IMG/VR virus record: IMGVR_UViG_3300007276_000067
Span: 1-51,706 of that record
Source: a virus
DNA: 51,706 bases
Direction: 5' to 3' (one strand)
Each line of letters begins with the position of its first letter. Within the stretch, counting starts at the first letter, position 1. The notes beneath the pieces were generated by a model. It worked only from the letters and a program-made list of their open reading frames with translations, searched no databases and had not been told where the DNA came from. This document shows, piece by piece, positions 8,459 to 48,181 of the stretch. The translations under genes were made by a program, and so were the position numbers.

Positions 8459-11400
8459 TGAGCTGTAGCTATAGAGTTGGGGGAGTAGAAAACGCATTAC
8501 TTACAGATGTCTTTAATTATGTTGAAGACAACCCTAGTGGGGCGCGAGCAGGCTTCAAAATTGAAAACATGCTGCTCTCTCGTAACATGGTATTTAAAGA
8601 TGGGAATGCTTTGTTTGCTGTAAAACAAGATGGAGTAACAGAAGACATAGCTAACATAAATAACACGGCACGTGAGTTTTTTGGAGTTGTAGGAGATCTA
8701 ATAATGCAAACTCCAGTAGGGAGAGACATACAAATCTCTGTAAATGACAACATTTTAGAGCTACTAAATCCTACAAGTGACCTTCAGAATTCATCTACTA
8801 CCACAAGAGGGGTAGATAGGGTAGTAGAAGAAGTAGAAGAAACCGTTGACCCTTTGATCAGCGAAGCATTTGATAGGAAAGAAAAAGTAGACGATCTAAC
8901 AGACAAGATCGTTACTAACCTACAGCTGCAGATAGACAGACTAAACAGGCTTGAGGAAACGGAGCCCATAAAAAGTAGGAGAAGAGAACTTGAGTTGTTG
9001 AAGTCTAAGCTTAGGAAAGTAAAGACTGGAAAAGAAAAGGTAGACAACTTCTATGAATACATAGATTATGTATTTAATCTAAGCAAAAGAGCTGCTACAG
9101 CGATGGATAGGATTGAAGATGAGTACGCTGTTGCGTACAAAACTATGCCTAACTCAGATAGAGCTGCAATCTTATCTAAGATATCTACATTAAAGCAAAC
9201 CCTAGATGCTTTCTACACAGAAGACAGAAATCTATCGGTCATTAACCAGCTCCAGAGTAAACTGGTGCGTATGCAAGATGAGTCTGGGACAAAAGATGAA
9301 CTCTTAGACAAACTTGTAGTGTCAATAGCTGACATGAAGGAGCTAAATGACAGATACTTAGAAATAGCTATACCCATCCAGGCTGATCTCCTGCTGGAAT
9401 ATGCTCCAATGGAAGTTAATCAAAAGTTTAACGCGAGCATAGAGAGGCTAGAAGCTGCAATAGCAAAGAAAGACTTTAACATTCCCTATGAAGGATTGAA
9501 GAGGAGAGATCCGCGTGCAATTAAAATTATGCGTGACACTCTTAAGATAGGGGCAGGACAAGAGAGGAGAGAGAAGTTAATGAAGCTGAACGTTATCCAG
9601 CTGAAAGAACAGATAATTGGGAGAGAGGCTATCATACGAGAGTTACGAGAGACGCATCAAGATGCTTCGTCCTTTTCTATGTACGCTGATCCGTTAGTAT
9701 ACAATTCAGAAACTAACATTCAACTGTTTGCAAATGCTGTAAAGTCAGAACTGTTTGACGCTCACCAAAAAACAATCGACACAAAGTATCAGTTAGAGCC
9801 TGCGTTTAAAAAGTTCAGAGAATGGAAAGGTGTATCAGAAGATAGGCCTGACAAGTTCTATGAAGACTTGTTTGAGACTGTAAACATTGCACGAAGACAA
9901 GAAGACGGTACAATTAAAATGGTACCGGTCCTGTCCTTTGTGCAGCCCTACGACATGAAACGGTTTCAGAGTGCAAAGACTCAAGCATTTGAAGCTGCTA
10001 AAAAAGCACACAACTATCCCAAAGACAATGCCGACTTAGATGATTTCTTTAAGTCTGATGATGGGAGAAGGTACAATGCAGCTGTCGCAAAATGGTATGC
10101 TGAAAACACTGAACCTATACAGGGAGCCCAGGACATTATTGACCAGATGATACGGGAGCGGGATAGTTTAGATTACGCAAGAAGCAAAGCATTTAAAGAC
10201 GGAAAAGAAGAAACAGGAAAAGAGTTAAGCTACCAGTACCATGCGTTAGAATTAGAGATAAAAAAAATATACAGACGTGGTAGGAATGGGATGCAAATAG
10301 TTGGAAACCTGACTGTACCTAACCAAAGCTACAATAACACAAAGTTTACTTCTATGCCCGCAGAGGCAAAAGAGTTTTATGATGTGCTGCTAGACATATA
10401 TAAAACACAGCAGAAGAAGCTTGGTAAGGGAGGTATGTCTCAAAACTCTTGGGACAACTTTTCGTACATACTTCCATCTGTTAGAAAGTCTGCGTTGGAT
10501 ATAGGACTAGAAGGCAACCCAGGAGAAGCAGTGACTGACGTAATAAACGATGCGTTTTACCTGCAAGAAACTGATACAGACTTTGGGGAGCTAGTACAAG
10601 CTAGTGGTGAGCGAATGAAGTTTATACCTAGATACTTCACCAACGTAGTAGAAGAAGCTAAAGTGTCTAAGAACATAGTAGACAGTATAGTTAAGTTTAC
10701 TGATATGTCTAACCGCTACGAGGCTAAAGCTAAGATGCTGGGCATGGTAAACGTAATGCACGATGCTATTGCATCTAGAGGCAGCCTAACTATGATGGAG
10801 TCAGGACATTATCTCTCTGATCGTACTGGACAAAAGCTAGGATATAACCTTGAGCTGAAAAAGAAAGGTAAAGAGTCAAACACATATAAAGCATTAGAAA
10901 GCTTCATCGACAACGTAATCTATGGAGAGTCTATAAAAGGAAATGCTAAGAAAACAATCTTAGGTAAGCTGTCAGTATCAAAGCTAGTGGGGCAAGCTTC
11001 CTCTCTTACAGCATTAGCAAGATTGTCTGGTAACATGCTACAAGCAACCAACCAGCTGATTATTGATAGCACCATGAATGCCCAAGAAGGCTGGGCTAAT
11101 CAATTCTACAGTAGATCAGATTTATCTCGTGCAAGATTTAAAGTACTTGCAAGCATGTCCTCAGAGGGACTAAGCCCCAAGTTCAATAAAGGAACTAAGC
11201 TTAATAAAATGCTGGAGATGTTTGATGCTTTGCAAGAGCATTCACAAGCATTTGAAAAGACAACTGGAACTGCAGTTAAGAAGGCTGCAGATTTTGGGAC
11301 ATCGTTTGCAGCGCAAAGAGGAATGGAGTGGCAGACTACGGCTGAGAAGATGGTGGCTTTGGCTATATCCCTGGAAGGAACTCTTAAGGATAAGAACGGT

Positions 11401-12297
11401 AAGGTTGTAAAAACAAAAGGTGGGAAAGACGCCAACTTGTGGGACGTGCTGGAAGTAAACAGCAGAGGCAGACTTGTAGTAAACTCAGAGGTTGCAAACT
11501 TTGGTAAGAAAGAGCTAGCAGCTTTTGCAAGTAAGCTTAATGGGATTACTAAAAGAACTAACCAGCTTAAAGGTCCTATTGATAAGGTGCTATTAGAGCG
11601 TCAGAACGCTACTAGACCTTTAATGCTTTTTAGAAAGTTCTTAGTGCCTGCCTATCGTAAAAGATTTGGACACTCTACTGGGGGCTACCACGTTGATGTA
11701 GAACTAGGAGATATTACAGAAGGATACTACACAACTGTGGGAAGAGCAATGGGTAGTGCGTTTTCATTTGGGAAACAACTTCAATTTAAAAGAGCATTTA
11801 GTCAGCTGAATCCGTTCTCAAAAGATTTGTCAGATTTGCAGAGGCAAAATTTAATAAGAGCTTATCACGAACAAATCTATTTGTCAATGCTAGGTCTTAT
11901 AACTGCTGCGTTAGGAGCTGCAATGGATGATGACGACGAGTTCGATAACTTTGCAGGACACTTTGCTATCTACCAAGCACATAGACTGCGAACAGAACTT
12001 AATGCATTCAGAGATCCGTCTGAATTATTTAGACTGGCAAAGAATCCTACAGCAGCTAGTCAATTGATTGAGGACAATATTGATTTAGCCTTCGCGACTA
12101 AAGACTTGCTGCTTAATTCTGTTGGTATAGTCCCTGATGAGGATGTGTACTATCAGCGGAGAGCAGGTCGAATGCAGAAGGGAGATCTTAAATGGACAAA
12201 AGAATTCTTAGATGTATTCCCAATTGCTGCTGGTTTGTACAAATCAGTAGACCCAGAACAGGCTTCTAAGTACTACGAGATAACGAGTAAAAAGTAA
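8458..12297 (+). CDS. Large virion/ejection protein downstream of the RNA polymerase
   Basis: This 1,279-residue protein starts at the ATG of the TAATG shared with the polymerase gene. Long charged helical stretches (about residues 120-460) suggest coiled coils. Near the C-terminus a hydrophobic segment, LSMLGLITAALGAAM, is followed at once by the acidic run DDDDEFD, which could be a membrane-active helix. No catalytic motif was recognised. In crAss-like phages the polymerase gene is accompanied by other very large capsid cargo proteins, so a co-packaged or co-ejected internal protein is the most likely role. This is inferred from position, size and composition, not from a recognised domain. 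Confidence 0.65.
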   Translation: MSCSYRVGGVENALLTDVFNYVEDNPSGARAGFKIENMLLSRNMVFKDGNALFAVKQDGVTEDIANINNTAREFFGVVGDLIMQTPVGRDIQISVNDNILELLNPTSDLQNSSTTTRGVDRVVEEVEETVDPLISEAFDRKEKVDDLTDKIVTNLQLQIDRLNRLEETEPIKSRRRELELLKSKLRKVKTGKEKVDNFYEYIDYVFNLSKRAATAMDRIEDEYAVAYKTMPNSDRAAILSKISTLKQTLDAFYTEDRNLSVINQLQSKLVRMQDESGTKDELLDKLVVSIADMKELNDRYLEIAIPIQADLLLEYAPMEVNQKFNASIERLEAAIAKKDFNIPYEGLKRRDPRAIKIMRDTLKIGAGQERREKLMKLNVIQLKEQIIGREAIIRELRETHQDASSFSMYADPLVYNSETNIQLFANAVKSELFDAHQKTIDTKYQLEPAFKKFREWKGVSEDRPDKFYEDLFETVNIARRQEDGTIKMVPVLSFVQPYDMKRFQSAKTQAFEAAKKAHNYPKDNADLDDFFKSDDGRRYNAAVAKWYAENTEPIQGAQDIIDQMIRERDSLDYARSKAFKDGKEETGKELSYQYHALELEIKKIYRRGRNGMQIVGNLTVPNQSYNNTKFTSMPAEAKEFYDVLLDIYKTQQKKLGKGGMSQNSWDNFSYILPSVRKSALDIGLEGNPGEAVTDVINDAFYLQETDTDFGELVQASGERMKFIPRYFTNVVEEAKVSKNIVDSIVKFTDMSNRYEAKAKMLGMVNVMHDAIASRGSLTMMESGHYLSDRTGQKLGYNLELKKKGKESNTYKALESFIDNVIYGESIKGNAKKTILGKLSVSKLVGQASSLTALARLSGNMLQATNQLIIDSTMNAQEGWANQFYSRSDLSRARFKVLASMSSEGLSPKFNKGTKLNKMLEMFDALQEHSQAFEKTTGTAVKKAADFGTSFAAQRGMEWQTTAEKMVALAISLEGTLKDKNGKVVKTKGGKDANLWDVLEVNSRGRLVVNSEVANFGKKELAAFASKLNGITKRTNQLKGPIDKVLLERQNATRPLMLFRKFLVPAYRKRFGHSTGGYHVDVELGDITEGYYTTVGRAMGSAFSFGKQLQFKRAFSQLNPFSKDLSDLQRQNLIRAYHEQIYLSMLGLITAALGAAMDDDDEFDNFAGHFAIYQAHRLRTELNAFRDPSELFRLAKNPTAASQLIEDNIDLAFATKDLLLNSVGIVPDEDVYYQRRAGRMQKGDLKWTKEFLDVFPIAAGLYKSVDPEQASKYYEITSKK

Positions 12298-25911: not shown

Positions 25912-25944
25912 TTTCTTATCATGTGTTTGTGTTTTAAGTGTTTG

Positions 25945-26018
25945 TACTCCCGGCGGGACTTGAACCCACAACCTACAGCTTAGAAGGCTGTTGCTCTATC
26001 CAGTTGAGCTACGGGAGC
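25945..26018 (-). tRNA. tRNA-Arg (TCT)
   Basis: The full cloverleaf is visible on the minus strand: acceptor GCTCCCG with CGGGAGT (terminal G-T pair), D arm AGCTCAACTGGATAGAGC, anticodon stem ACAGC/GCTGT around the loop CTTCTAA, and T loop TTCAAGT. CCA is not encoded. It reads AGA, a frequent codon in these A/T-rich phage genes. Confidence 0.95.
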
Positions 26019-26022
26019 TTAA

Positions 26023-26076
26023 TACCTCACAGGTGTCGGTGACCTGCTGCTTGTAACAGTCATAAATGACGAGGTA
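26023..26076 (-). ncRNA. Cloverleaf-like spacer between two tRNAs
   Basis: A six-pair closing stem (26023-26028 with 26071-26076) encloses three hairpins: five pairs at 26030-26034/26042-26046, three pairs at 26047-26049/26057-26059, and four pairs at about 26059-26062/26067-26070. The last two share base 26059, so they compete for it. It has no T-loop consensus and is not a tRNA. The symmetry makes the strand ambiguous; minus is assumed because it lies within a minus-strand tRNA transcript. Confidence 0.5.
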
Positions 26077-26078
26077 AG

Positions 26079-26152
26079 TGCGCCTACTAGGACTTGAACC
26101 TAGGACCTGCCGATTATGAGTCGGATGCTCTAACCAACTGAGCTATAAGCGC
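26079..26152 (-). tRNA. tRNA with CAT anticodon (Met or lysidine-type Ile)
   Basis: The minus-strand cloverleaf has acceptor GCGCTTA with TAGGCGC, D arm TAGCTCAGTTGGTTAGAGC, anticodon loop CTCATAA and T loop TTCAAGT. The acceptor ends in G1-C72, so it is not an initiator tRNA of the usual bacterial type. CAT could mean elongator methionine, or isoleucine after lysidine modification; sequence alone does not settle this. Confidence 0.93.
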
Positions 26153-26155
26153 ATG

Positions 26156-26240
26156 TAGCTAAGACCGGACTCGAACCGGTACGACCCTTCGGGTCAACAG
26201 ATTTTAAGTCTGTCGTGTCTACCAATTCCACCACTTAGCC
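26156..26240 (-). tRNA. tRNA-Leu (TAA)
   Basis: The class II tRNA on the minus strand has acceptor GGCTAAG with CTTAGCT, anticodon stem ACAGA/TCTGT around the loop CTTAAAA, a long variable arm TGACCCGAAGGGTCG and T loop TTCGAGT. It reads TTA, the leucine codon favoured in A/T-rich genomes. It shares its first base with the last base of the preceding gene's stop. Confidence 0.95.
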
Positions 26241-33358: not shown

Positions 33359-33366
33359 TATGTTTG
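33359..33366 (+). promoter_or_regulatory. Candidate -7 element of the late export operon
   Basis: TATGTTTG fits the Bacteroidota TAnnTTTG consensus. The -33 TTTG is not seen at 19 bases; the nearest is GTTTA at 33332-33336, 22 bases upstream. Transcription from here would begin near 33373, leaving a leader of about 33 bases to the holin ATG at 33406 that includes AAACTAACTA. Confidence 0.4.
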
Positions 33367-33405
33367 GTTTTAATTGATTACTTTTACGACAAACTAACTA
33401 GTCGT

Positions 33406-33837
33406 ATGAGCAAGAAGATTAAGGACACTAAGTTAGGGGCCTGGTTAAGAGACAAGGCTCCTAGCGTTCTTGGTACTGTGGGTGACCTATTACCTGACCA
33501 AGGAGCATTAGGACTTGTAAAAAACCTCTTAGATAAAGAGCCCAATATCGATCCTGCCGAGGCGCAGGCAAAGATAGATGCAGAGGTGCGATTCCAAGAG
33601 AACGTAACGGAACGGTGGAAGGCTGATATGGGGAGCGATATTAAACTCGCCAAACTAATACGGCCCGTCACCCTGATTACTTTAATGGTAATGTTCTGCC
33701 TAACTATGGTGTTTGACAGTATGGACAATTGGCCATTCAACGTCAAAGATAGTTACATCGATTTATTGCAGATACTAATGCTCACCTCGTTCGGTGCATA
33801 CTTTGCAGGAAGAACGATCGAAAAAACAAAAAGATGA
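33406..33837 (+). CDS. Holin, three-transmembrane-type (GTA holin-like)
   Basis: From the ATG at 33406 the 143-residue protein reads MSKKIKDTKLGAWLRDKAP, an amphipathic charged helix, then RFQENVTERWKADMGSD. Two clear membrane helices follow (PVTLITLMVMFCLTMVF and a second, YIDLLQILMLTSFGAYFAG), ending with a basic KKTKR-like tail. This layout, with the conserved ERWxxD...R segment before the first helix, matches the GTA-type 3TM holin family. A TTG at 33364 in frame is rejected because it overlaps the likely promoter. The stop overlaps the next ATG (ATGA), coupling lysis and export genes. Confidence 0.8.
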   Translation: MSKKIKDTKLGAWLRDKAPSVLGTVGDLLPDQGALGLVKNLLDKEPNIDPAEAQAKIDAEVRFQENVTERWKADMGSDIKLAKLIRPVTLITLMVMFCLTMVFDSMDNWPFNVKDSYIDLLQILMLTSFGAYFAGRTIEKTKR

Positions 33838-35957
33838 GATCCCTACTTGCACTGATGTTGCTCCTCCCAAGCATAGTGCTGGGACAGAGCTGGGTAATTG
33901 TAGAACTTCAAACAGACCAATACGCACTCGAGACCAGTTGGGTAATCGTACAAGACAACGAAGTCATAGAAGAGTCAAGCACTTACGCAAGTAATTCATA
34001 CAACGAACAGCTTGTCTTTCTCTCCCCAGGTAACTACGAGTTTATCATATACGACAGCTTTGGGGACGGGATCTGTTGTGGATTTGGGGAAGGATGGTTT
34101 GCCCTTAGTAATGCGTGTCAATTAGATACAGCAGTATACGACTTCAATAGTCCAGAACTAATACTCCCATTTGAAGTATTCCCTTGCCCGCCCCCAATCT
34201 TTGGATGTACAGATGCAGCAGCTACTAACTATAATCCTTGGGCCAACGTCTCTCTCCCATGTCTGTATCCTCCTCAACCTTGTACCGACGGAGAAACCAC
34301 CATCATTGTAACAGTAACCCCAGACACATACGCAGGTGAAATTAGTTGGGCTCTGCAGTCTAACGGAGTAGAGGTATTGTCCGAGGACGAGTATAGTATC
34401 GTTGGTCTCCCAATTACACATGATGTTTGCGTAGCTGTTGGAGACACCTTAGTACTAGAAGTATACGACACGTTTGGGGATGGGATGTGCGGCAGCTGTT
34501 ACGGAGGAGTCGACGGGAACATCTCTATAACTACGCTATGTCAAGATACGCTATACTATATAGGAGATACTACACAATACTTAACAGCTTCTAGCGAACC
34601 AATCGCAGTAGAAGAGTGCCTGCTTAATGTAGTGCAAGGGTGCACCGATCCAAACTTTACAGAGTACAATCACTTAGCAGAAACAGATGACGGGTCTTGT
34701 GCTACAGAAGTAATACTAGGATGTACAGACCCAGATGCATTTAACTTTAACGAAGATGCAAACACCTTAGAAACGCAACCGTTTTGTATGACCCTTTTAA
34801 CATTAACAGACGGAGCGGGTGACGGATGGTTTGGGAGCTGGTTAGGTGTTGTGCAAGGGGACGAGATATTTGGCCCGTTCCAAATGGGTCCTAATGACGG
34901 GACGGAAGAGCAGTTTTTTATCCCGCTGTATTCAGGAGAGCCTATCGAAGTAATGTTCTTTACAGGAGGTAACGCCGAAACTACTGCAGCACAGTGCGGG
35001 TTTTTCTTTACTAGTCCTACAGGAATCTTTATGGAAGCAGGAAGTAATCCTTGGACAGACGCAATAAAGAAGTTCCCATTTAAATACGAAGGCGTCCCAT
35101 TCTGCCAAGACTTCTGCATCGAAACAATTGTTGGGTGTACTGACCCTGATGCATGTGACTATAACCCAGAAGCAAACGTCGAATCAGAGTGCACTCTCCC
35201 AATAGAATTCTATAACTGTGATAATCAATGTGTTACAGATTCGGACGGAGATGGTGTATGCGATGAGCTAGAAATAGTTGGGTGCATAGATGCTACAGCA
35301 TTTAATTACGACCCTACTGCTACAGATAGTGGAGACTGTGAGGACATTGTCTTTGGGTGTACCGATCCCACACAGTTTAATTATAACGAGGAAGCAAATA
35401 CAGATAATGGAAGTTGCGTAGAGTTCATTTACGGATGCACTGATCCAGAAGCAATCAACTACGACGAAGAAGCAAATGCTGATGGGGGCGGTTGTATTGA
35501 CGTACTAGAAGGGTGCATGGACACTGACGCCTACAACTTTAATGAAGATGCTAATACTGCAGATAATGAGCAGTGCTTATATGATGCAGGATGCATAGGA
35601 GAGCCAGGCGATCCATACTGGGGGAATGACCAGTGTTACTCATGGGTAATTAGTGTCGACCCCTACTGCTGTGAAACTAGTTGGGATGACGTATGTATAG
35701 AAATGTATGGGTATTGCGGAGACGGATTGACAAACATACCCGAGCTCTCTGAAAGAATAAACATATACCCAAACCCAACAAGAAGAGATATATACGTACA
35801 AGCTCCACAAGGTAGCATAACTACTGTGTACAATTCTATAGGCCAAAAGATTGTAACAACAAGTAATTCACAAATAGAGCTCCCAAGTGCGGGAGCGTAT
35901 ATCGTAGTAGTAACATACAACGGTCGAGTTGTCAAACAAACAATTGTAAGAGAATGA
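33834..35957 (+). CDS. Secreted repeat protein with T9SS type A sorting domain
   Basis: The 707-residue protein has a signal peptide (MRSLLALMLLLPSIVLGQS), so it crosses the inner membrane by Sec. Eight GCTDPxAxNYxxxAN-type repeats, each with two cysteines, lie at residues about 124-570. They are mixed with three DxxGDG domains near 74, 215 and 327 and a calcium-type DSDGDGVCDELE motif. The last 75 residues have INIYPNPTRRDIYV, VYNSIGQKI and GAYIVVVTYNGRVVKQTI, the T9SS type A C-terminal signal. Bacteroidota use this signal to export proteins across the outer membrane and anchor them. The gene overlaps the holin stop and the next start by ATGA, so it belongs to the phage transcript. It probably coats or leaves the infected cell. 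Confidence 0.88.
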   Translation: MRSLLALMLLLPSIVLGQSWVIVELQTDQYALETSWVIVQDNEVIEESSTYASNSYNEQLVFLSPGNYEFIIYDSFGDGICCGFGEGWFALSNACQLDTAVYDFNSPELILPFEVFPCPPPIFGCTDAAATNYNPWANVSLPCLYPPQPCTDGETTIIVTVTPDTYAGEISWALQSNGVEVLSEDEYSIVGLPITHDVCVAVGDTLVLEVYDTFGDGMCGSCYGGVDGNISITTLCQDTLYYIGDTTQYLTASSEPIAVEECLLNVVQGCTDPNFTEYNHLAETDDGSCATEVILGCTDPDAFNFNEDANTLETQPFCMTLLTLTDGAGDGWFGSWLGVVQGDEIFGPFQMGPNDGTEEQFFIPLYSGEPIEVMFFTGGNAETTAAQCGFFFTSPTGIFMEAGSNPWTDAIKKFPFKYEGVPFCQDFCIETIVGCTDPDACDYNPEANVESECTLPIEFYNCDNQCVTDSDGDGVCDELEIVGCIDATAFNYDPTATDSGDCEDIVFGCTDPTQFNYNEEANTDNGSCVEFIYGCTDPEAINYDEEANADGGGCIDVLEGCMDTDAYNFNEDANTADNEQCLYDAGCIGEPGDPYWGNDQCYSWVISVDPYCCETSWDDVCIEMYGYCGDGLTNIPELSERINIYPNPTRRDIYVQAPQGSITTVYNSIGQKIVTTSNSQIELPSAGAYIVVVTYNGRVVKQTIVRE

Positions 35958-36997
35958 GATACATTATAGCACTATTATTATTAGTTCCTACAATTAGCTG
36001 GGGACAAAGTGACTTCTATAAAAAAGTTCTTAGACGTGCTACTTTCTACGCAGCAGTCAACGGGGGCAATTCTGTCTCTGATCAAGAAACCTACTCTGTC
36101 TCTACAGGAGCACTACAAACAGGTGTAATTAAAACTCCATTTGATTACTCACTTACATTAGGGGTTAGAAAAATAGCTAGGTTTGGGTACGAGAACAGAG
36201 CTAACGTATTCTACAACGGAACAGAAAAAACTTATGGTGATGCTGCTACCGTTGGAAAATATGACGGGTTCGAGTTCCTGGCGGAAGCGGACTGGAGGAG
36301 GCAGCAGGGGCGGAATTTTCTAGACCAAGATTACTTTATTAGATATGTAGACAATTGGTGGTTAGCAAAAGCAGAGTACCTACAAGATGGATTTGCAGAC
36401 GTAAAATACTTTGAGTCTTCGCAACGAGCACGACTTAAGATTGGGAAAAAGTTTTCTTTAAACCTTGGCGTCGTACAAAGAATATCAGAGCCTTACGGCT
36501 ACGACCCCTTACAACAATGGGTTCTCCCAAACAACCAGCTGCACTACACAGCGCTTGCAATCCAAGAAGGATATAGCATAGATGTTAATACAGGAGAATT
36601 CTTTGATCAGAATGGGAACCTGGTGGCAAACGATCCTGCAATATGGGAACAAGTAGTAATCCCAGAAGTGCTAGATAACTATGTAACAGATAGGCGAGCA
36701 GAACTCCCAAGTATATGGATGCATTCTGCTGTAGTAGGGTTTGACTTCTACCACTACACAAAAGATTTTTGGATACACTCTTGGGGAAATATCATGCCCT
36801 TCCATTTAAACAGTGGCAATGAATTTTCATACCACAACTTTGTGAATGGGAATCAATGGGTAGACACCGGAGCTGGAATAGTCTTTGGTTCTAAAATAAC
36901 CAAAAGCTTGGGGGTGTTTGCAGAAGGAAGATACAACAAATATTGGAACAGAGAGTGGCACGACTTCTCCATAGGGTTAAACTACATACTACTATAA
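35954..36997 (+). CDS. Probable outer-membrane beta-barrel protein
   Basis: Signal peptide MRYIIALLLLVPTISWGQS, then 328 residues of aromatic, alternating beta strands without a membrane helix. The C-terminal strand is HDFSIGLNYILL, typical of a barrel closing strand. It starts in the ATGA shared with the T9SS protein gene and ends TAATG with the next gene. It may sit in the outer membrane as a receptor mask or a partner of the exported protein. No specific family recognised; some Bacteroidota phages carry similar proteins, as far as I can recall. Confidence 0.65.
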   Translation: MRYIIALLLLVPTISWGQSDFYKKVLRRATFYAAVNGGNSVSDQETYSVSTGALQTGVIKTPFDYSLTLGVRKIARFGYENRANVFYNGTEKTYGDAATVGKYDGFEFLAEADWRRQQGRNFLDQDYFIRYVDNWWLAKAEYLQDGFADVKYFESSQRARLKIGKKFSLNLGVVQRISEPYGYDPLQQWVLPNNQLHYTALAIQEGYSIDVNTGEFFDQNGNLVANDPAIWEQVVIPEVLDNYVTDRRAELPSIWMHSAVVGFDFYHYTKDFWIHSWGNIMPFHLNSGNEFSYHNFVNGNQWVDTGAGIVFGSKITKSLGVFAEGRYNKYWNREWHDFSIGLNYILL

Positions 36998-37281
36998 TGG
37001 CACAACATATCAGTGAGAACACTAAGATTACTTTAGATCTTAAAACAATTGGGTTAGCGGTTACGGGATTGGGGGCATTGATAAGCATGTGGTTTGTACT
37101 GCAAGCAGATATTGAGGAGGCAAAAAAACTACCAGAGCCTACAGCCCCTGAAATCACACGTATGGAATTTGACATGAAAGACAAACTAGTACGTCAAACT
37201 ATTATGACTACTCAAGAAGATGTCACAGAAATAAAACAAGACATCAAGAGGATTGAGGAGAAAATAGATCAACTTAAATAA
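36997..37281 (+). CDS. Membrane-anchored coiled-coil protein, 94 aa
   Basis: Start at the ATG of TAATG (36997). One membrane helix, IGLAVTGLGALISMWFVL, lies near the N-terminus, then a Pro-rich hinge (KLPEPTAPE) and a C-terminal coiled coil (VTEIKQDIKRIEEKIDQLK). The layout of anchor, hinge and periplasmic coiled coil resembles an inner-membrane spanin or a holin accessory protein. In the holin operon a lysis role is plausible but not shown. Confidence 0.65.
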   Translation: MAQHISENTKITLDLKTIGLAVTGLGALISMWFVLQADIEEAKKLPEPTAPEITRMEFDMKDKLVRQTIMTTQEDVTEIKQDIKRIEEKIDQLK

Positions 37282-37288
37282 ATGAGAA

Positions 37289-37657
37289 ATGAAAACCTTA
37301 CTCTCTGTTATATTATCCCTACTGCTATTCTCAACAGCCGTGTATGTAAACACGCCTGCAGAAGAAGCTAAAATTTGCACATCTGGGGTGTGCGTAGTAG
37401 AATTCAATGCTAACTTTAATCAACAAAACGCTGTTCCTTGGATAGAGAAATTAAATGACTGTGAGACTGGGAGAGTGGATATTGCCGCTTCCCCTGACCT
37501 GCAGCAAAAGCACAAGATTGTAGTTGTTCCTACCATTGTCGTATTTAACGAAGGTGAAGAGATAACACGATTTCAAGCCAACATTATGATGACAATGGAG
37601 GCCACTGAAGATGAAGTGCAAGAAGCGGTTGACGAGATAATCTTGAACGACTTTTAA
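37289..37657 (+). CDS. Exported thioredoxin-fold protein without CxxC
   Basis: Signal peptide MKTLLSVILSLLLFSTAVYV, then a thioredoxin-like core: VCVVEFNANFNQQNAVPWI, the strand KIVVVPTIVVFNEGEE with the family's cis-proline, and a C-terminal helix. The active-site WCxxC is missing; the only cysteines are CTSGVC before the first strand and one in NDC. It therefore cannot be a standard oxidoreductase. It could be a periplasmic chaperone for the Cys-rich export protein encoded two genes earlier. Its TAA overlaps the convergent gene's stop. Confidence 0.7.
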   Translation: MKTLLSVILSLLLFSTAVYVNTPAEEAKICTSGVCVVEFNANFNQQNAVPWIEKLNDCETGRVDIAASPDLQQKHKIVVVPTIVVFNEGEEITRFQANIMMTMEATEDEVQEAVDEIILNDF

Positions 37658-39429
37658 CGAAAAAGTGTGACGCTCCCGTTGAGATTTAAAACATCTCCAG
37701 AGTATCCTCTTGCAGTTAAAGTCCATACGTATACCCCATCTGCGGCATAGTGCGTATCCGATAAACTCTCTCCCTCCCAACGTACTTCGGGGTCATCAGT
37801 CGACCACACTATATTGCCCCAACGATTGTACACTACTAAGCTCCAATCTAACCAGCAGGTGTAGGACTCTGACACTGCATAGAATGTATCGTTGATTCCG
37901 TCATTGTTAGGGGAAAATGCATTGGGTACAAATACTGATCGGCAGTCATTGCCCGTAAACCCATTTTCACAAGGGAGACCAGTACTGCAGTCGACTAATA
38001 CGTCATTGTAAACAACGTCGTAGATAGTATCGGTTTGGTAGATGTACTCATACACTACAACCTCCTGCATTAATGTATCTACTTGAGTAATGTACAAAGT
38101 ATCAACCAAGGGGATCTCTAACGTATCCGTCACATAAACGTACTCTATGTCTATCTCGGTGACAATAACTGTGTCTAATACATTGACATAGATGGTGTCA
38201 AATACATCTACGTAAATAGTATCATAGAAGTAATACTCCCACGGGATGTAAACCGTGTCTAGCTGCAAGACTGTTACAGTATCGGGTGGCAACTCGACAT
38301 ACTCTATCAGGGTATCAACCTCTAACAGAACAAGGGTATCTTGAGGCAACTCTACATACTCTACAATGGTATCGTACGTCGCCACATATAACGTATCAAA
38401 CTCATATAGTGTAGTGTATATCTCTACTGTATCAGGTACGCACTCTACTGGGCACTCTGGTATCTCTGGTAGCCAAACAGTTTCATTATTATTCCCTGTA
38501 ATAATCTCATCGTTTACACTATCGACACTGATAACAAACAAACTTCCCGGACCATCCATTTCAAAGAATGGAGTAGTAAACGTTTGCCCTTCTCCTGGTG
38601 GTATTTCGTACGCTCCAAACAACTCCGAGTCAAAGCAAACATAATAGTCTTCATTCCAAAGCTCTATGCAATACTCAGTGATTGGCTCATCCCCATTATT
38701 ATATACAACGTATTCAATATTGTAGAACGCTTGATCCCCGATGCAGCCCGTAGTAATCACTACATTAATAATCTCAGCATCTGGTGCAGGAGGAGGGGGA
38801 CAAACTATCACCGAGTTATTTTCCGGAGCTACATCGGGATAAGCTTGAGTGCTGCCCCATGGAGTACCATCACCATTAACACCAGTAGTTGCCCAACCTC
38901 CTTCGGATGCATAGTATGTCTGAGAATAATTAATCTGCCATACTACAAACTCTACACACTCGTCTAAGCTGTGCCAATAGTCTATGTAGTCAGGAGCACA
39001 GCAGCTCATAGACCCCGTAAGAAAAGGGTCGTTAACACAGTCTGTACCGTACGGGTTATCCAGCTGCATGACAACTACATCCCCAGTCTCTAAAGGCATG
39101 TCAATGTCATAGCTGTTTGCCCAGTTGTTTGGCATCGAGTTAATGCTAGGACCATAAGTCCAACCTAAATGGTTGGAGGTGGGAGACATATCGCAAGGGC
39201 CTTCAGCATCTGGATCCCACGGGATATCGTATCCTGGAACGTGTATCCCAATCATAAGCATATTGATTGCGGAGTTTGTGCCGTTATAACCCTGAGCACC
39301 GCATCCTTCTGAATTAATTACTTCGACCGTAACCTCATAAGTATTGACGTCGACTCCCGTAATAGCCACATCGCACTGAGCACCAGTTACAAACGGGATA
39401 AATAGTAATAAGAGAAATACTTTTTTCAC
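37654..39429 (-). CDS. Secreted stalk protein with T9SS type B (gliding) C-terminal domain
   Basis: Start at GTG 39429 with signal peptide MKKVFLLLLFIPFVTGAQC. Residues about 25-330 are beta-rich, Cys-containing adhesin-like domains. Residues about 340-480 are a long series of DT(I/V/L)Y-type repeats, probably a stiff stalk. The C-terminus contains FVPNAFSPNNDGINDTF, VYNRWGNIVW and DGVYVWTLTARGY, the gliding-motility-associated type B signal of the T9SS. It lies opposite to the late genes around it and shares TTAA with the convergent thioredoxin-like gene, without a terminator between. This looks like an accessory gene inserted in the late region; it would be displayed on or released from the host surface. 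Confidence 0.88.
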   Translation of the reverse strand: MKKVFLLLLFIPFVTGAQCDVAITGVDVNTYEVTVEVINSEGCGAQGYNGTNSAINMLMIGIHVPGYDIPWDPDAEGPCDMSPTSNHLGWTYGPSINSMPNNWANSYDIDMPLETGDVVVMQLDNPYGTDCVNDPFLTGSMSCCAPDYIDYWHSLDECVEFVVWQINYSQTYYASEGGWATTGVNGDGTPWGSTQAYPDVAPENNSVIVCPPPPAPDAEIINVVITTGCIGDQAFYNIEYVVYNNGDEPITEYCIELWNEDYYVCFDSELFGAYEIPPGEGQTFTTPFFEMDGPGSLFVISVDSVNDEIITGNNNETVWLPEIPECPVECVPDTVEIYTTLYEFDTLYVATYDTIVEYVELPQDTLVLLEVDTLIEYVELPPDTVTVLQLDTVYIPWEYYFYDTIYVDVFDTIYVNVLDTVIVTEIDIEYVYVTDTLEIPLVDTLYITQVDTLMQEVVVYEYIYQTDTIYDVVYNDVLVDCSTGLPCENGFTGNDCRSVFVPNAFSPNNDGINDTFYAVSESYTCWLDWSLVVYNRWGNIVWSTDDPEVRWEGESLSDTHYAADGVYVWTLTARGYSGDVLNLNGSVTLFR

Positions 39430-39494
39430 GTAGCTAATATATAACTATATTTGTGACTACTATGAATTTAAGGTACCCAAATAACCGTAAAACT
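39430..39494. promoter_or_regulatory. Divergent promoter region between T9SS-B gene and DUF5675 gene
   Basis: On the plus strand TATATTTG (39446-39453) fits the -7 consensus TAnnTTTG; 19 bases upstream is TTTT, not TTTG. On the minus strand TATATTAG is a weaker match just before the GTG at 39429. The leader GTAAAACT before the ATG at 39495 matches the TTTAAAACT before the capsid gene. Confidence 0.5.
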
Positions 39495-39965
39495 ATGCAG
39501 CTAGAAGTTGTAAGGTTTAGCTCTCAAAAAGACAGTACACTTGGACTGCTATTTGAAGTCACAGACGCAAAAAGAGAATTTTTATGTTACACGCTAGAGG
39601 ATGAGTACAGAGATGACAAAGTCATGCACGAAACACGTATCCCAGCAGGGACATACGAAATCACACTTAGGACTGTGGGCGGCTTTAATTCTAGATACTC
39701 TGACAGGTTTGCTGATATTCATAAAGGGATGTTGTGGGTTCGCGATATACCTGGTTTTGAGTATATTCTTATCCATTGCGGTAATGATGATGATGATACT
39801 AGTGGGTGCTTACTCTTGGGGAACACGCAAACGGAAAACATAATGTCCGACGGGTTTGTGGGCAGTTCTAGTGTAGCGTACAAAAGAATATACACAAAAG
39901 TAGCAGACGTACTTGAGAAGGGTGAAAAAGTAGAAATTTCTTATATAGACTTTGACACTATATAA
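39495..39965 (+). CDS. DUF5675-family protein (possible cell-wall enzyme)
   Basis: I take the ATG at 39495 (MQLEVVRFSSQKDSTLG), the usual start pattern of this family, rather than upstream GTG or ATG codons. Conserved features are CYTLEDE, VMHETRIPAGTYEI, FEYILIHCGNDDDDTSGCLL and a C-terminal basic segment. The IHxGN...TxGC pattern recalls the active-site region of L,D-transpeptidase-like folds, and members are common near phage lysis genes. An endolysin or peptidoglycan-processing role is therefore plausible. No other endolysin is visible nearby. Confidence 0.7.
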   Translation: MQLEVVRFSSQKDSTLGLLFEVTDAKREFLCYTLEDEYRDDKVMHETRIPAGTYEITLRTVGGFNSRYSDRFADIHKGMLWVRDIPGFEYILIHCGNDDDDTSGCLLLGNTQTENIMSDGFVGSSSVAYKRIYTKVADVLEKGEKVEISYIDFDTI

Positions 39966-43721: not shown

Positions 43722-45944
43722 ATGTACGGAGCAGCAAAAATACCGCAGCAGAGACTCCCGCTAAAGAAGAAGACTAAGAAGTGGAGAGAGGAATGCATTG
43801 ATGCTTTCATTAACCTATCTAAGTTCGGACTCAGCGAGAGACGCAGCAACCTTAAGGCCCTATATGATTACTATAACGGAGAGGTAGACGAGACTGATTA
43901 TCGCTATGTTATAAAGCCGTACGGTAAAAGCAGAGAAAACTTCCCATCCAAGCTACGGAACTACCCAATCATCAAGCCAATCATAGACTTGTTGCTAGGA
44001 GAGAAGTCAAAAAGACCATTAAACTACAGCGTTACTGTAAAGAACGCAGACAGTGTTAGCCTCAAAGAACAAGCTAAGGTTGAGCAATTACGCAAAACCG
44101 TGGAGGCTATGTTCTTAAAAGAAATAGCAGAGCCTAAAGATCTAGAGAGTCAGCAGGCACAAGAACAGAAGCCACTTCTCCCTAAACAAGTAGCAGAACA
44201 GTTTGAGCGTACATATGTAGATGACAGAGCCATCAAAGGACAGGCAGCTGTAAACTATATCATGTATGAGCAAGAAATGTATGATAAGTTCCAAAAACAG
44301 TTCTTTCATTTCTTAATCTCTGGAGAAGCATACTCCCACAAAGGAGTAAGACGCTCAGAGCCTTTCTATGACGTAGTTAATCCTATTGATATTGACTTTG
44401 ATAAAGACCCAGATGTAGAGTTTGTAGAGGACGGTGACTGGGCAATTGTTAGAAGATACGCGCACACGTCTACAGTCATAGATCAGTTTGGGGACTTTCT
44501 TACAGAGCAGCAGGTTCTAGAACTAGAAGATCCTAAGAATCAATCAGTAGACACATACTTATTGTACAGGTCAGAAGCAGCAGGTAACGGAGATAACGTA
44601 TACCGCAATAGACTTGTTGAGGTAGTTACTGTGTACTGGAAGAGCAGAAAACGTATTGGGTTTGTAGAATACATAGATCCACAAACAGGCGTAGCGGAAG
44701 AGTTTGAGATAGATGAGGAGTACAAAATGCCAGCAGAACTCAAAGCCCAGGGCGCTAAAACCAACTGGGAATGGGTAAATGAGGTGTGGGAGGGAACAAA
44801 GATTGATGGTAGATTCTATGTAAAGATGACCCCAATCGCTAACCAGCGTACATCACTAGATAACCCATCTCTGTGTAAGCTTCCAATAAATGGATTCAAG
44901 TACTCAGACATTAACTCTAATAACGTATCTCTAGTTAGTTTAGGTATACCTTTTCAGATTAACTACAACATATTCAAGTACCGCATGGAACTTGCTATTG
45001 CACGGTCTAAGGACATCATAGCACAGTTTGATATCAACATGATCCCAAAGAAATGGGACCTGGATAAGTTTATGTACTACGTAGAAGGCACAGGTATTGC
45101 TTGGGTTGACTACAACAAGGAGGGTATCCAACTATCACCACAACACCAATCTGTGCTTGACATGTCTATTAAGACAATAGAGCAGTACATACTTCTCTTA
45201 GAGAATACTATGCAGGAGTGGGAAAAGATATCAGGAGTAAACAGACAACGACAAGGAACAATAGGAGCTCATGAAGGCAAAGGCTCTTCCCAACAAGCCA
45301 TTGTACAGTCAAGTCACATTACAGAAGACTTATTCCGCAAGTTCTCACGATTCGAACAACGAGAGCTGCAAGGAATGCTGGACTACTCTAAAGAAGCTTG
45401 GATATCTGGAAAGAAAGGCATGTATGTAATGCCTGACACAACTACTCAGTTTATAGACCTTGATTCACTTGGGCACATGGAGTCTGAGTACGGAATCTTT
45501 GTATCTGATGCAGGTAGAGACCAGGAAAACATTAGACAAGCACGTGAGCTCTCACAAGCAATGATTCAAAACGGGATGCCTGCATCTGCAGTACTTGAGT
45601 TGCTTGATACTGAGAACTTCTCTGGTATCAAAGACAAGCTACGTAAAGCAGAAGCCGCACAGCAAGAACTTGAGCAAGCTCAGCAGCAAGCTCAACAACA
45701 ACAAATGCAGCAGCAACAGCAGATGGAGCAGGCTAAGATGCAGCAAGAGACCCAAGAAAAAGATCGTGACAGGCAGAAAGATATTGAGATAGCCCTGATT
45801 AATGCAGAAGCAAAAGACCAAGCTAATCGCTTGAACATTGACCTGCAGAAGATTATGATGGACAACGACATTAAGCAGAAAGAAGTAGATCTTAAACGTG
45901 AAGCGTTATCTAAAGAAGGTGACCTAGAACCTAATGGGGAGTAA
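43722..45944 (+). CDS. Portal protein
   Basis: The 740-residue protein lies directly after terL, 19 bases apart. Typical portal features are NYPIIKPIIDLLLGEKSKRP near the N-terminus, VNPIDIDFDKDPDVEFVEDG, IGAHEGKGSSQQAIVQSS (the conserved ...S..Q..I region before the long stem helix) and a C-terminal Gln-rich coiled coil (AQQELEQAQQQAQQQQ). It forms the dodecameric DNA channel. The stop and the next start share TAATG. Confidence 0.88.
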   Translation: MYGAAKIPQQRLPLKKKTKKWREECIDAFINLSKFGLSERRSNLKALYDYYNGEVDETDYRYVIKPYGKSRENFPSKLRNYPIIKPIIDLLLGEKSKRPLNYSVTVKNADSVSLKEQAKVEQLRKTVEAMFLKEIAEPKDLESQQAQEQKPLLPKQVAEQFERTYVDDRAIKGQAAVNYIMYEQEMYDKFQKQFFHFLISGEAYSHKGVRRSEPFYDVVNPIDIDFDKDPDVEFVEDGDWAIVRRYAHTSTVIDQFGDFLTEQQVLELEDPKNQSVDTYLLYRSEAAGNGDNVYRNRLVEVVTVYWKSRKRIGFVEYIDPQTGVAEEFEIDEEYKMPAELKAQGAKTNWEWVNEVWEGTKIDGRFYVKMTPIANQRTSLDNPSLCKLPINGFKYSDINSNNVSLVSLGIPFQINYNIFKYRMELAIARSKDIIAQFDINMIPKKWDLDKFMYYVEGTGIAWVDYNKEGIQLSPQHQSVLDMSIKTIEQYILLLENTMQEWEKISGVNRQRQGTIGAHEGKGSSQQAIVQSSHITEDLFRKFSRFEQRELQGMLDYSKEAWISGKKGMYVMPDTTTQFIDLDSLGHMESEYGIFVSDAGRDQENIRQARELSQAMIQNGMPASAVLELLDTENFSGIKDKLRKAEAAQQELEQAQQQAQQQQMQQQQQMEQAKMQQETQEKDRDRQKDIEIALINAEAKDQANRLNIDLQKIMMDNDIKQKEVDLKREALSKEGDLEPNGE

Positions 45945-48181
45945 TGGATAATGTTACTCGACGTGGGTTATTGACGAGACACAGACAGTCTCAGTTTCCT
46001 GGTTCTATACTTGATGTATTTAAGGCATATGACCAAGGAGTAGATCTAATTGGGGAGTTTGAACAGCAACAAATGCAAGTTGCACAAACACCTCAACAAC
46101 AACAGCAAGGATTGAGACCTGAGCACCAAGCGGGGAACGTTAATCAAAGTATGGCATTCCCTAATGTCCCTCCTAACACTCCATTCAATACGATGGGCAT
46201 GAAGGCCCCAATCGATATCAAGAAGTTCGATGAGCAGGGACACTTAGTCAAGTCATACGATGACGTTCCCCCAGGTGTACAGAATCTCCCAACAGGACCA
46301 CAACGTGGTACAGTCATTGAGACTCCTGCTAATATGCAGGCTGGAGGAGTTATTTCTGGAATGGAACAATACGCACAGTATAACAACCTTAACCCAGAGT
46401 TAGCAGCAGCCGTTGCGTCTCGTCCTCAAAACAATGATCGCTTAACGTCGTACACAGACGCACAAATGCGTCAGTTTAATAATAGGGGAGAACAGACTCG
46501 TGTAAATAAAGCCCAGACAAATATGTCGAACAGGTTAAGCACTGCAGGTAGCAATGCTTACCAGTTTCATAAAGACAAGCCTTTAGACGCTTTAGGCATG
46601 GACTTAGCAATTGCAGGACAACTACCTATAGTTGGGGAAGTAGCGGATTTAGCAAATGCTGGAATTAGTGGCGCGCGGGGCCTTTACAATACTGCAGTAG
46701 GGGACACAGCAAAAGCTAAAGAACAGTATGCATTAGCAGGTCTTAGTGCCGCCAGTGCAATACCGTTTGTAGGGAATGCAGCGGGTGCAGCTCGCCTTGC
46801 TAAAACTGGGCATAAAATAGCACATAAAGCACACAATCTTGAGAAAGGGGTAATTGGGGCAAAAACTTTTAAAGCAAGCGCTCATGAAAGCAAACAAAGA
46901 GGTGGATTTAAAGGTTCTGATTTAGAGTCCGCTATGAAAGTAGGAGCGGGGGCAGCTGTTACTAGCACAGTAGGAAGAGGAATATCTGCGCTTGCTAAAA
47001 ATAGAAATCTTGACAAAGATGCATTTGCTCAATGGAAAGCTGGACAAGACAGAGCTCACCAAGCATTGCTTGGAATGGACTATGACGAGTACTGTCTAAC
47101 AGGTGATTGTCCTGAAAACCCATTTCAAGGCGATCCTCCAAATTTTAAAGATTGGAGGAACCATGACTATTTCTCTGCTTCGCAAACTAATGCTCGTCCT
47201 GTAGGAAGACTTGTTCAAGGATTTGAAGACAACCCACTACAGGGCAAGTCAATACTTAAACAAGGAGTAAGAGATGGGATCGTTACAGGGGCACTGACCT
47301 ACGGTACCAACAAGCTGCTAGACAATACAAGGTTTGGAAGAAAAGTAAAACGCAACTTTAACGTAAAAGTAGGTTGGAACGGGAGAAGACAAGATGGAGG
47401 ACCTAGAAAGATGCAGTCAGGCGGCACTTTTCCACAGCAGGGACCTGATGGATTAGTTTTTCCTACTACCCCTCCTGATACAGCTCAAACAGCTACACCT
47501 ACGGCACCTCCTGTGCGCGAAGTACCAAGATTTCAAGATACTCGAGAGTGGATAGAAAGAGAGTACGGCCCTGATCAGTTCGGAGACACTCTTAACTTAA
47601 CTGCACTAGACTTAGTATCTGAGCACAGACAAAACATACAACAACCTCACGCAGTGAGAGACACCATTGCATACCACGAAACTGGGCCTCACCAAAGAAT
47701 GCAACCAAATGCAGTTCAGATTACAAATAGAGGAGGACAAGGAGTAGGAAGAGGAATGTATATGTATGACCAGCCTTCTACACTAACTGCTGCAAATAGA
47801 GTAGATGATATTGCTAATTACATGGGGCTCGAAACACCAAGCTTTATATCTAACCTACGAGAAAGTAATGGAACCTCTAGAGCAGATACTCTATCTAGAG
47901 AACAGCAAGACATGTTATTTATGGGGGATCTTATTGAAGGTCCTGCGCCTGGAAGAGCATACGGCGCAGGTCAAACAGATATTGAAAGCCTTTGGTATAG
48001 AGGACATAACAGACGTCCAGACGAACAAACTGCAAGGAGAGAGTTTAGAGAAAGTATGCGGGGTCTACAAGAAGATGATTTAAGAAATTATATGTTCCAA
48101 GAAGATCGTCGTAACTACTTTGAACGACAAGAAAGACGACATGGAGGAGCAATGCGGAAATACTTTAAACTACGAAAGTGA
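45944..48181 (+). CDS. Multidomain virion protein with membrane-active and lysozyme-like regions
   Basis: The N-terminal 200 residues are Gln/Pro-rich and carry MQAGG and later QDGG and MQSGG motifs seen in structural proteins of Bacteroidota phages. Residues about 210-300 contain two small-residue hydrophobic helices, LPIVGEVADLANAGISG and LSAASAIPFVGNAAGAA, much like the pre-toxin segment of polymorphic toxins. The C-terminal part has AYHETGPHQRMQPNAVQ (Glu579) and GRGMYMYDQPS with TAANR, resembling a transglycosylase-type E-x-G...Q pattern. It probably opens the envelope during DNA entry. The gene is coupled to portal by TAATG. Confidence 0.7.
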   Translation: MDNVTRRGLLTRHRQSQFPGSILDVFKAYDQGVDLIGEFEQQQMQVAQTPQQQQQGLRPEHQAGNVNQSMAFPNVPPNTPFNTMGMKAPIDIKKFDEQGHLVKSYDDVPPGVQNLPTGPQRGTVIETPANMQAGGVISGMEQYAQYNNLNPELAAAVASRPQNNDRLTSYTDAQMRQFNNRGEQTRVNKAQTNMSNRLSTAGSNAYQFHKDKPLDALGMDLAIAGQLPIVGEVADLANAGISGARGLYNTAVGDTAKAKEQYALAGLSAASAIPFVGNAAGAARLAKTGHKIAHKAHNLEKGVIGAKTFKASAHESKQRGGFKGSDLESAMKVGAGAAVTSTVGRGISALAKNRNLDKDAFAQWKAGQDRAHQALLGMDYDEYCLTGDCPENPFQGDPPNFKDWRNHDYFSASQTNARPVGRLVQGFEDNPLQGKSILKQGVRDGIVTGALTYGTNKLLDNTRFGRKVKRNFNVKVGWNGRRQDGGPRKMQSGGTFPQQGPDGLVFPTTPPDTAQTATPTAPPVREVPRFQDTREWIEREYGPDQFGDTLNLTALDLVSEHRQNIQQPHAVRDTIAYHETGPHQRMQPNAVQITNRGGQGVGRGMYMYDQPSTLTAANRVDDIANYMGLETPSFISNLRESNGTSRADTLSREQQDMLFMGDLIEGPAPGRAYGAGQTDIESLWYRGHNRRPDEQTARREFRESMRGLQEDDLRNYMFQEDRRNYFERQERRHGGAMRKYFKLRK

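Follow-up and report, generated by a model that had tools for sequence, protein, structure and literature searches.

A late four-gene cassette with a type IX secretion cargo and an outer-membrane barrel recurs in Bacteroidota phages

Many Bacteroidota phages carry a late cassette of four genes, T9A, OMP347, P94 and TRX, which are kept together across phage lineages. The product of the first gene, T9A, has a Sec signal and, at its other end, a type A tail of the type IX secretion system (T9SS) with the predicted fold of known sorting signals. We estimate at about 40% the probability that this envelope-spanning cassette, exchanged among unrelated Bacteroidota phages, remodels the infected cell against adsorption by means of T9A brought to the surface by the T9SS and of the barrel OMP347. 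The analysis started from the linear virus record IMGVR_UViG_3300007276_000067, whose whole length of 51.7 kb is called the window here. The features of the cassette region are listed in Table 1.

Table 1. Features of the cassette region in the window
Feature	Position	Strand	Description and basis
Holin, upstream neighbour of T9A	33364..33837	+	phrog_3427, E 1.9e-22; actual start possibly at a later ATG
T9A, T9SS type A cargo, adhesin-like	33834..35957	+	707 aa, ATG start, 39 Cys
T9A, Sec signal peptide MRSLLALMLLLPSIVLGQ	33834..33887	+	hydropathy; by eye
T9A, three beta domains with DxxGDG (residues 19-115, 154-253, 317-420) and first GCTD repeats	33888..35093	+	AF2 model; motif positions
T9A, repeat block GCTD/GCID/GCMD (residues 434-564) and one TSP3-like DSDGDGVCD	35133..35525	+	motif positions
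T9A, helical Cys-rich domain preceding the C-terminal sorting domain (..CYSWVISVDPYCCETSWDDVCIEMYGYC)	35592..35717	+	AF2 model; Cys and Trp invariant in 33 relatives
T9A, T9SS type A C-terminal sorting domain (CTD), residues 643-707	35760..35954	+	TIGR04183; fold match 8glk_D, RgpB CTD
OMP347, phage-encoded outer-membrane beta barrel	35954..36997	+	12 strands, signal peptide, insert at residues 180-253; alignment, AF2, Foldseek
P94, single TM and C-terminal coiled coil	36997..37281	+	94 aa; ATG overlaps OMP347 stop by one base
TRX, exported thioredoxin-fold protein, NxxN for CxxC	37289..37657	+	PF00085; alignment
T9B, T9SS type B (CHU_C)	37654..39429	-	591 aa; PF13585 57.1 bits, cut-off 27; tail-to-tail with TRX
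DUF5675 gene, often near the cassette	39453..39965	+	PF18925 90 bits; phrog_1501

The window phage is crAss-like (Crassvirales), since its terminase is related to that of the Suoliviridae (about 42% identity to crAss-like phages of this family) and its major head protein matches phrog_11589 (E 2.6e-86). An earlier note on this DNA had already assigned it in this way. The same note had named an assembly chimera as one possible case against its own reading of T9A. The T9A gene was, however, found on three contigs (86-87% protein identity) with the same neighbours from the holin through the portal, so that, in practical terms, a chimera can be excluded. Host contamination was likewise rejected, as T9A and its flanks recur on several independent viral contigs. 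Among the genome_contigs records, close relatives of OMP347 were confined to a single one, which is a phage contig within a MAG, and a tblastn search of the cultured phages in INPHARED found no relative of T9A or OMP347. The gene limits given earlier for T9A were correct, and both ATGA overlaps described for it are present, one between the holin stop and the T9A start (33834-33837) and the other between the T9A stop and the start of the next gene, OMP347 (35954-35957). The proposed membership of T9A in a late phage operon is supported. A promoter scan gave sigma-70 matches at chance level, the sigma-70 model not being informative for Bacteroidota. Elsewhere in the window, three tRNA genes (Arg-TCT, Met-CAT and Leu-TAA) lie on the reverse strand at 25944-26240 beside the DNA polymerase region, and residues 43-131 of the protein encoded by a large gene at 45944-48181 (+), between the portal and head genes, match DUF192 with 26.7 bits (cut-off 27).

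The N-terminal signal peptide and the three DxxGDG modules noticed earlier in T9A were both borne out. Hydrophobicity of the N-terminus is maximal at residues 3-25, as expected of a Sec signal, and the hydrophobic N-terminus is also present in the T9A relatives. The DxxGDG motifs stand at residues 74, 212 and 326, and an additional TSP3-like DSDGDG was found at residue 469. Eight GCTD repeats had been claimed as well; eight repeats do stand in register, but strictly only six of them are GCTD, the others being GCID (483) and GCMD (560). Invariant cysteines occur along the whole length of T9A in the 33 relatives compared. The apparent T9A relatives L034, L035 and L037-L039 were rejected as chance matches to short repeats. 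The N-terminal domains are swapped between relatives; a MAM domain was detected in 7 of the 33 members (E 3e-24), and a convincing enzymatic domain in none. T9A is the faster-evolving, outward part of the cassette (dN/dS 0.11, compared with 0.04 for OMP347 and 0.02 for the terminase). In 295 cellular Bacteroidia genomes it was matched only piecewise, inside other proteins, with the single exception of the phage contig of L129, which points to T9A being an assembly, specific to phages, of surface domains of the host type. The AF2 models of T9A and OMP347 are of middling confidence.

The T9SS type A export signal proposed for the C-terminus of T9A was confirmed by TIGR04183, by the orthologues and by the predicted fold. 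In the window itself, the tail scores 27.1 bits against TIGR04183 (cut-off 23), at the very C-terminus, but only 19.4 bits against PF18962 (cut-off 27). The profile search suggested earlier with these two models thus succeeded with the former and failed with the latter, and the window tail is borderline by itself because of its PF18962 score. The TIGR04183 cut-off was exceeded in 34 of 50 related phage records (best 48.6 bits, E 4e-14), with essentially one match per record, located at the end of the T9A homologue, whereas the control set of 11 further phages of Bacteroidota, from the gut or from culture, contained no match over the cut-off. No ORF besides T9A carries such a tail in the cassette loci examined. 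The AF2 model of T9A ends in a beta-sandwich with the fold of known CTD signals. For this tail (residues 643-706), the NucA CTD as solved within the T9SS translocon ranks first among the confident fold matches (8glk_D; 75 residues, 2.2 A, TM 0.74 on the target, prob 1.00), and the RgpB CTDs (7pq4 and 5ag8) likewise match the modelled tail. The distribution among relatives and controls, together with the predicted fold match, settles the identity of the T9A CTD. Most members retain this CTD, and purifying selection acts on it.

OMP347 was modelled by AF2 as a 12-strand barrel (pLDDT 77), and its sequences align with 52-94% identity over 57 phages. The nearest structures by fold were the porin NanC, plus an unnamed viral protein, E 3e-24 (Foldseek). 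An assignment to PorP/SprF was rejected (hhalign probability 6.7%, no PF11751 match), and so was one to PorV, which is FadL-like with 14 strands; the T9SS complex chain 8gl6_F, presumably PorV, came at rank 29 with TM 0.31. A Pfam match to SH3_5 was below the cut-off and was dismissed. As the profile comparison separates OMP347 from PorP/SprF, its tie to the T9SS is one of adjacency only. The topology of P94, an N-terminal TM followed by a coiled coil, is compatible with an i-spanin; its weak PHROG matches are to unknown or 'lipoprotein' families, none of them is a spanin PHROG, and no o-spanin partner was identified. In TRX, the signature of the thioredoxin fold and the cis-Pro are retained, with Pro81-Thr82 invariant in the alignment. 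PF00085 was found in 32 of 36 TRX relatives (best E 4e-6), the window TRX alone scoring below the curated cut-off. The site of CxxC is occupied by NxxN, in which Asn44 is invariant and Asn47 nearly so, and with CxxC absent an active thioredoxin is ruled out. Profiles of OMP347 and TRX gave no match in 15 control records, in a run that had no positive control.

The earlier note had mentioned neither these conserved partners (barrel, TM/coiled-coil and thioredoxin-fold proteins) nor a second T9SS gene in the window, the type B gene T9B, which goes with the cassette in crAss-like phages. T9B scored 32.2 bits against TIGR04131, under the cut-off of 35, and CHU_C was above its cut-off in 12 of 50 related records. 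T9B diverges more than any other gene of the cassette region. Its product contains long, beta-rich repeats with a high content of DT(L/I)Y, and relatives were found on the viral contigs L121 and L125, where no OMP347 match was found. The DUF5675 protein contains a HCG...SGC motif, which we take to recall L,D-peptidase-like enzymes, and could be the muralytic enzyme. The cultured crAss-like Cellulophaga phage phi14:2 has a gene for an OmpA-domain membrane protein at its genome start (L150:283-1278), a further example of an outer-membrane protein encoded by a phage, and no T9SS type A cargo was found in its genome.

A scan with OMP347 confirmed 444 viral places, the best 80 of which were retained. 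Of the loci with enough flank, 68 of 70 contained all four families (a few contigs were counted twice), and only P94 was undetected in the other two. The cassette stands in about five contexts, in the first four of which the gene order is T9A-OMP347-P94-TRX. In crAss-like phages (context i) it follows the holin and is itself followed by the reverse-strand type B gene and DUF5675; in another phage group (ii) it is preceded by a giant gene and a holin; elsewhere it lies between the portal and capsid genes (iii), as in 30 of 72 rows of the OMP347 tree, or after a small TM gene, mostly on contigs of 50-165 kb (iv). In the one large context-(iv) phage that was read further, an endolysin-like gene comes next after the cassette. 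In context (v), OMP347, P94 and TRX come after a giant gene, and T9A follows at some distance. The coupling to the holin, to which the earlier note had drawn attention, therefore holds for crAss-like and some other phages but not for the many whose cassette is flanked by portal and capsid genes. Most T9A homologues of context (v) have no recognised CTD, so T9A export in this context is unproven. Instead, they (L007, L013, L017 and others) share an alternative conserved tail, ITDLLGRP..LFYIYDDGTV.KK.IK, in the last ~45 residues, which is possibly another sorting signal.

The context changes at least 8 times over the OMP347 tree, where the minimum would be 3. A comparison with the non-crAss phage G033 (terminase phrog_6681, portal phrog_6547) illustrates the exchange of the cassette. 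Between the window and G033, identity is 63% for OMP347, 71% for TRX and 79% for P94 (partial ORF), 77% for the holin and 60% for DUF5675, whereas the terminases are 22% identical and the capsid gives no match. More generally, OMP347, P94 and TRX have ~45-80% identity across phages with terminases that are ~22% identical and capsids that are not recognisably related, and of 36 records with a cassette just 4 contain the window capsid. The sharing of these genes by phages with unrelated terminases and capsids, together with the repeated changes of context, shows that the cassette is an exchanged and repeatedly relocated module. One cassette-bearing phage contig, L141 (G010), also contains a GroEL chaperonin gene at 10368-11933 (phrog_5725, E 7.5e-137).

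Hosts were assigned from phage relatedness and from one MAG bin. The MAG in which a cassette phage contig was binned encodes SprA and six PorP/SprF proteins, and the link to a T9SS host depends on this binning. According to the proposed mechanism, T9A would pass the inner membrane by Sec and acquire its disulfides in the periplasm. The host T9SS would then move it to the cell surface while the proton-motive force lasts, before the holin fires. OMP347 would be placed in the outer membrane next to T9A, as its partner or anchor, while P94 would occupy the inner membrane and TRX the periplasm. The phage would probably gain from a remodelled surface to which neither its progeny nor rival phages adsorb on the dying cell and its debris. 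Since the T9SS is driven by the proton-motive force (PMC9127263), T9A export must precede holin triggering, and an effect on the still-intact cell is therefore favoured. A conserved barrel together with conserved inner-membrane and periplasmic parts, combined with a fast-evolving outer T9A whose domains can be exchanged, agrees with a device for surface remodelling. We infer that the most likely role of the cassette is surface remodelling before lysis, preventing readsorption and superinfection. The lack of a recognised CTD in most T9A homologues of context (v), the many cassettes that are not beside a holin and the distinctness of OMP347 from PorP/SprF speak against this model. The broader statement that several unrelated lineages share an undescribed, horizontally exchanged module, which spans the whole Gram-negative envelope, commandeers the host T9SS through the phage's own barrel and reshapes the surface late, has in our judgement a little less than an even chance of being right.

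Given the neighbouring holin and endolysin genes, the chief competing explanation is a role in egress. The cassette would then be the Bacteroidota counterpart of the spanins, P94 and OMP347 bridging or breaching the outer membrane after the holin has acted and T9A loosening or marking the surface. In several contexts the neighbour of the cassette is a holin gene or one resembling it, in one large phage an endolysin-like gene follows, the holin and DUF5675 are shared alongside the cassette at similar identity, and the topology of P94 is i-spanin-like. We nevertheless regard this role as unlikely, since P94 has no spanin family match, many cassettes are situated between portal and capsid genes, and the holin destroys the proton-motive force that the T9SS needs, so that T9A must be exported before lysis. 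It is improbable that T9A serves adhesion and spread by sticking infected cells or debris to uninfected neighbours or particles and so helping released phage to find hosts. Although the MAM domain and the Cys-rich, multi-domain beta architecture of the T9A model agree with such a function, no ligand is known and domains of this kind are common in host surface proteins.

Phage T9SS cargoes with enzymatic domains are known (PMC7468147), and T9A might be a moron-like secreted binding protein that aids nutrient uptake by the host, as was suggested for the Cryophage enzymes. We give this only a small chance, given the lack of a convincing enzymatic domain in all 33 members and the fixed place of T9A in a conserved late cassette, unlike that of a variable accessory gene. 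That the sorting domain is vestigial or misleading, and T9A a virion protein or one kept in the periplasm, has a very small chance. The position of the cassette among head genes in many phages and the PF18962 score of the window tail would suit it; against it stand the signal peptide, the conservation of the CTD under purifying selection, its predicted likeness to translocon-bound signals and the restriction of such tails to T9A in the cassette loci.

Few phage proteins reach the outer cell surface, and the use of the Bacteroidota-specific T9SS by phages is almost unexplored. The fixed composition of the cassette and the hundreds of viral OMP347 matches suggest that many Bacteroidota phages routinely include T9SS-mediated surface export in their infection cycle. 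Two questions thereby become open to experiment: whether a functional T9SS in the host benefits phages, and whether Bacteroidota with a mutated T9SS are impaired as hosts in the late phase of infection in addition to the early one.

In the SprB-SprF and PorP pairs of Bacteroidota hosts, the gene of a T9SS cargo stands beside that of an outer-membrane barrel. T9A and OMP347 resemble them in this adjacency, but OMP347 is not a PorP/SprF protein by hhalign and the CTD of T9A is of type A, not type B. Llp of phage T5 and other phage receptor-blocking proteins act at the outer surface, where they block adsorption. If the function of T9A is exclusion, its mode of action would be comparable; Llp is a lipoprotein, whereas T9SS delivery and an outer-membrane barrel would be involved here. 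The earlier statement that no system of this kind had been described does not hold, as T9SS cargo has been reported in Cryophage (PMC7468147) and in gut phages with BACON domains (PMC6949934). For a conserved phage T9SS cassette with its own barrel, the open-licence literature yielded single-cargo precedents only, and the four-gene cassette appears to be undescribed. The 2019 study of gut phages including crAssphage located T9SS sorting domains in the products of phage genes that precede the head genes (PMC6949934). Such domains are common to those phages and ours, but theirs are linked to BACON domains, and the available part of that paper describes no barrel, TM/coiled-coil or thioredoxin partners. 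Cryophage (2020) encodes T9SS type A cargoes that are thought to hijack the host T9SS, and superinfection exclusion was proposed by the authors (PMC7468147). The type A sorting domains on phage proteins are the feature shared with T9A; the Cryophage cargoes are three variable alternatives, an endoglucanase, a GH39 and a PA14 protein (PMC7468147), whereas here one cargo family is fixed in a barrel-bearing cassette across unrelated phages.
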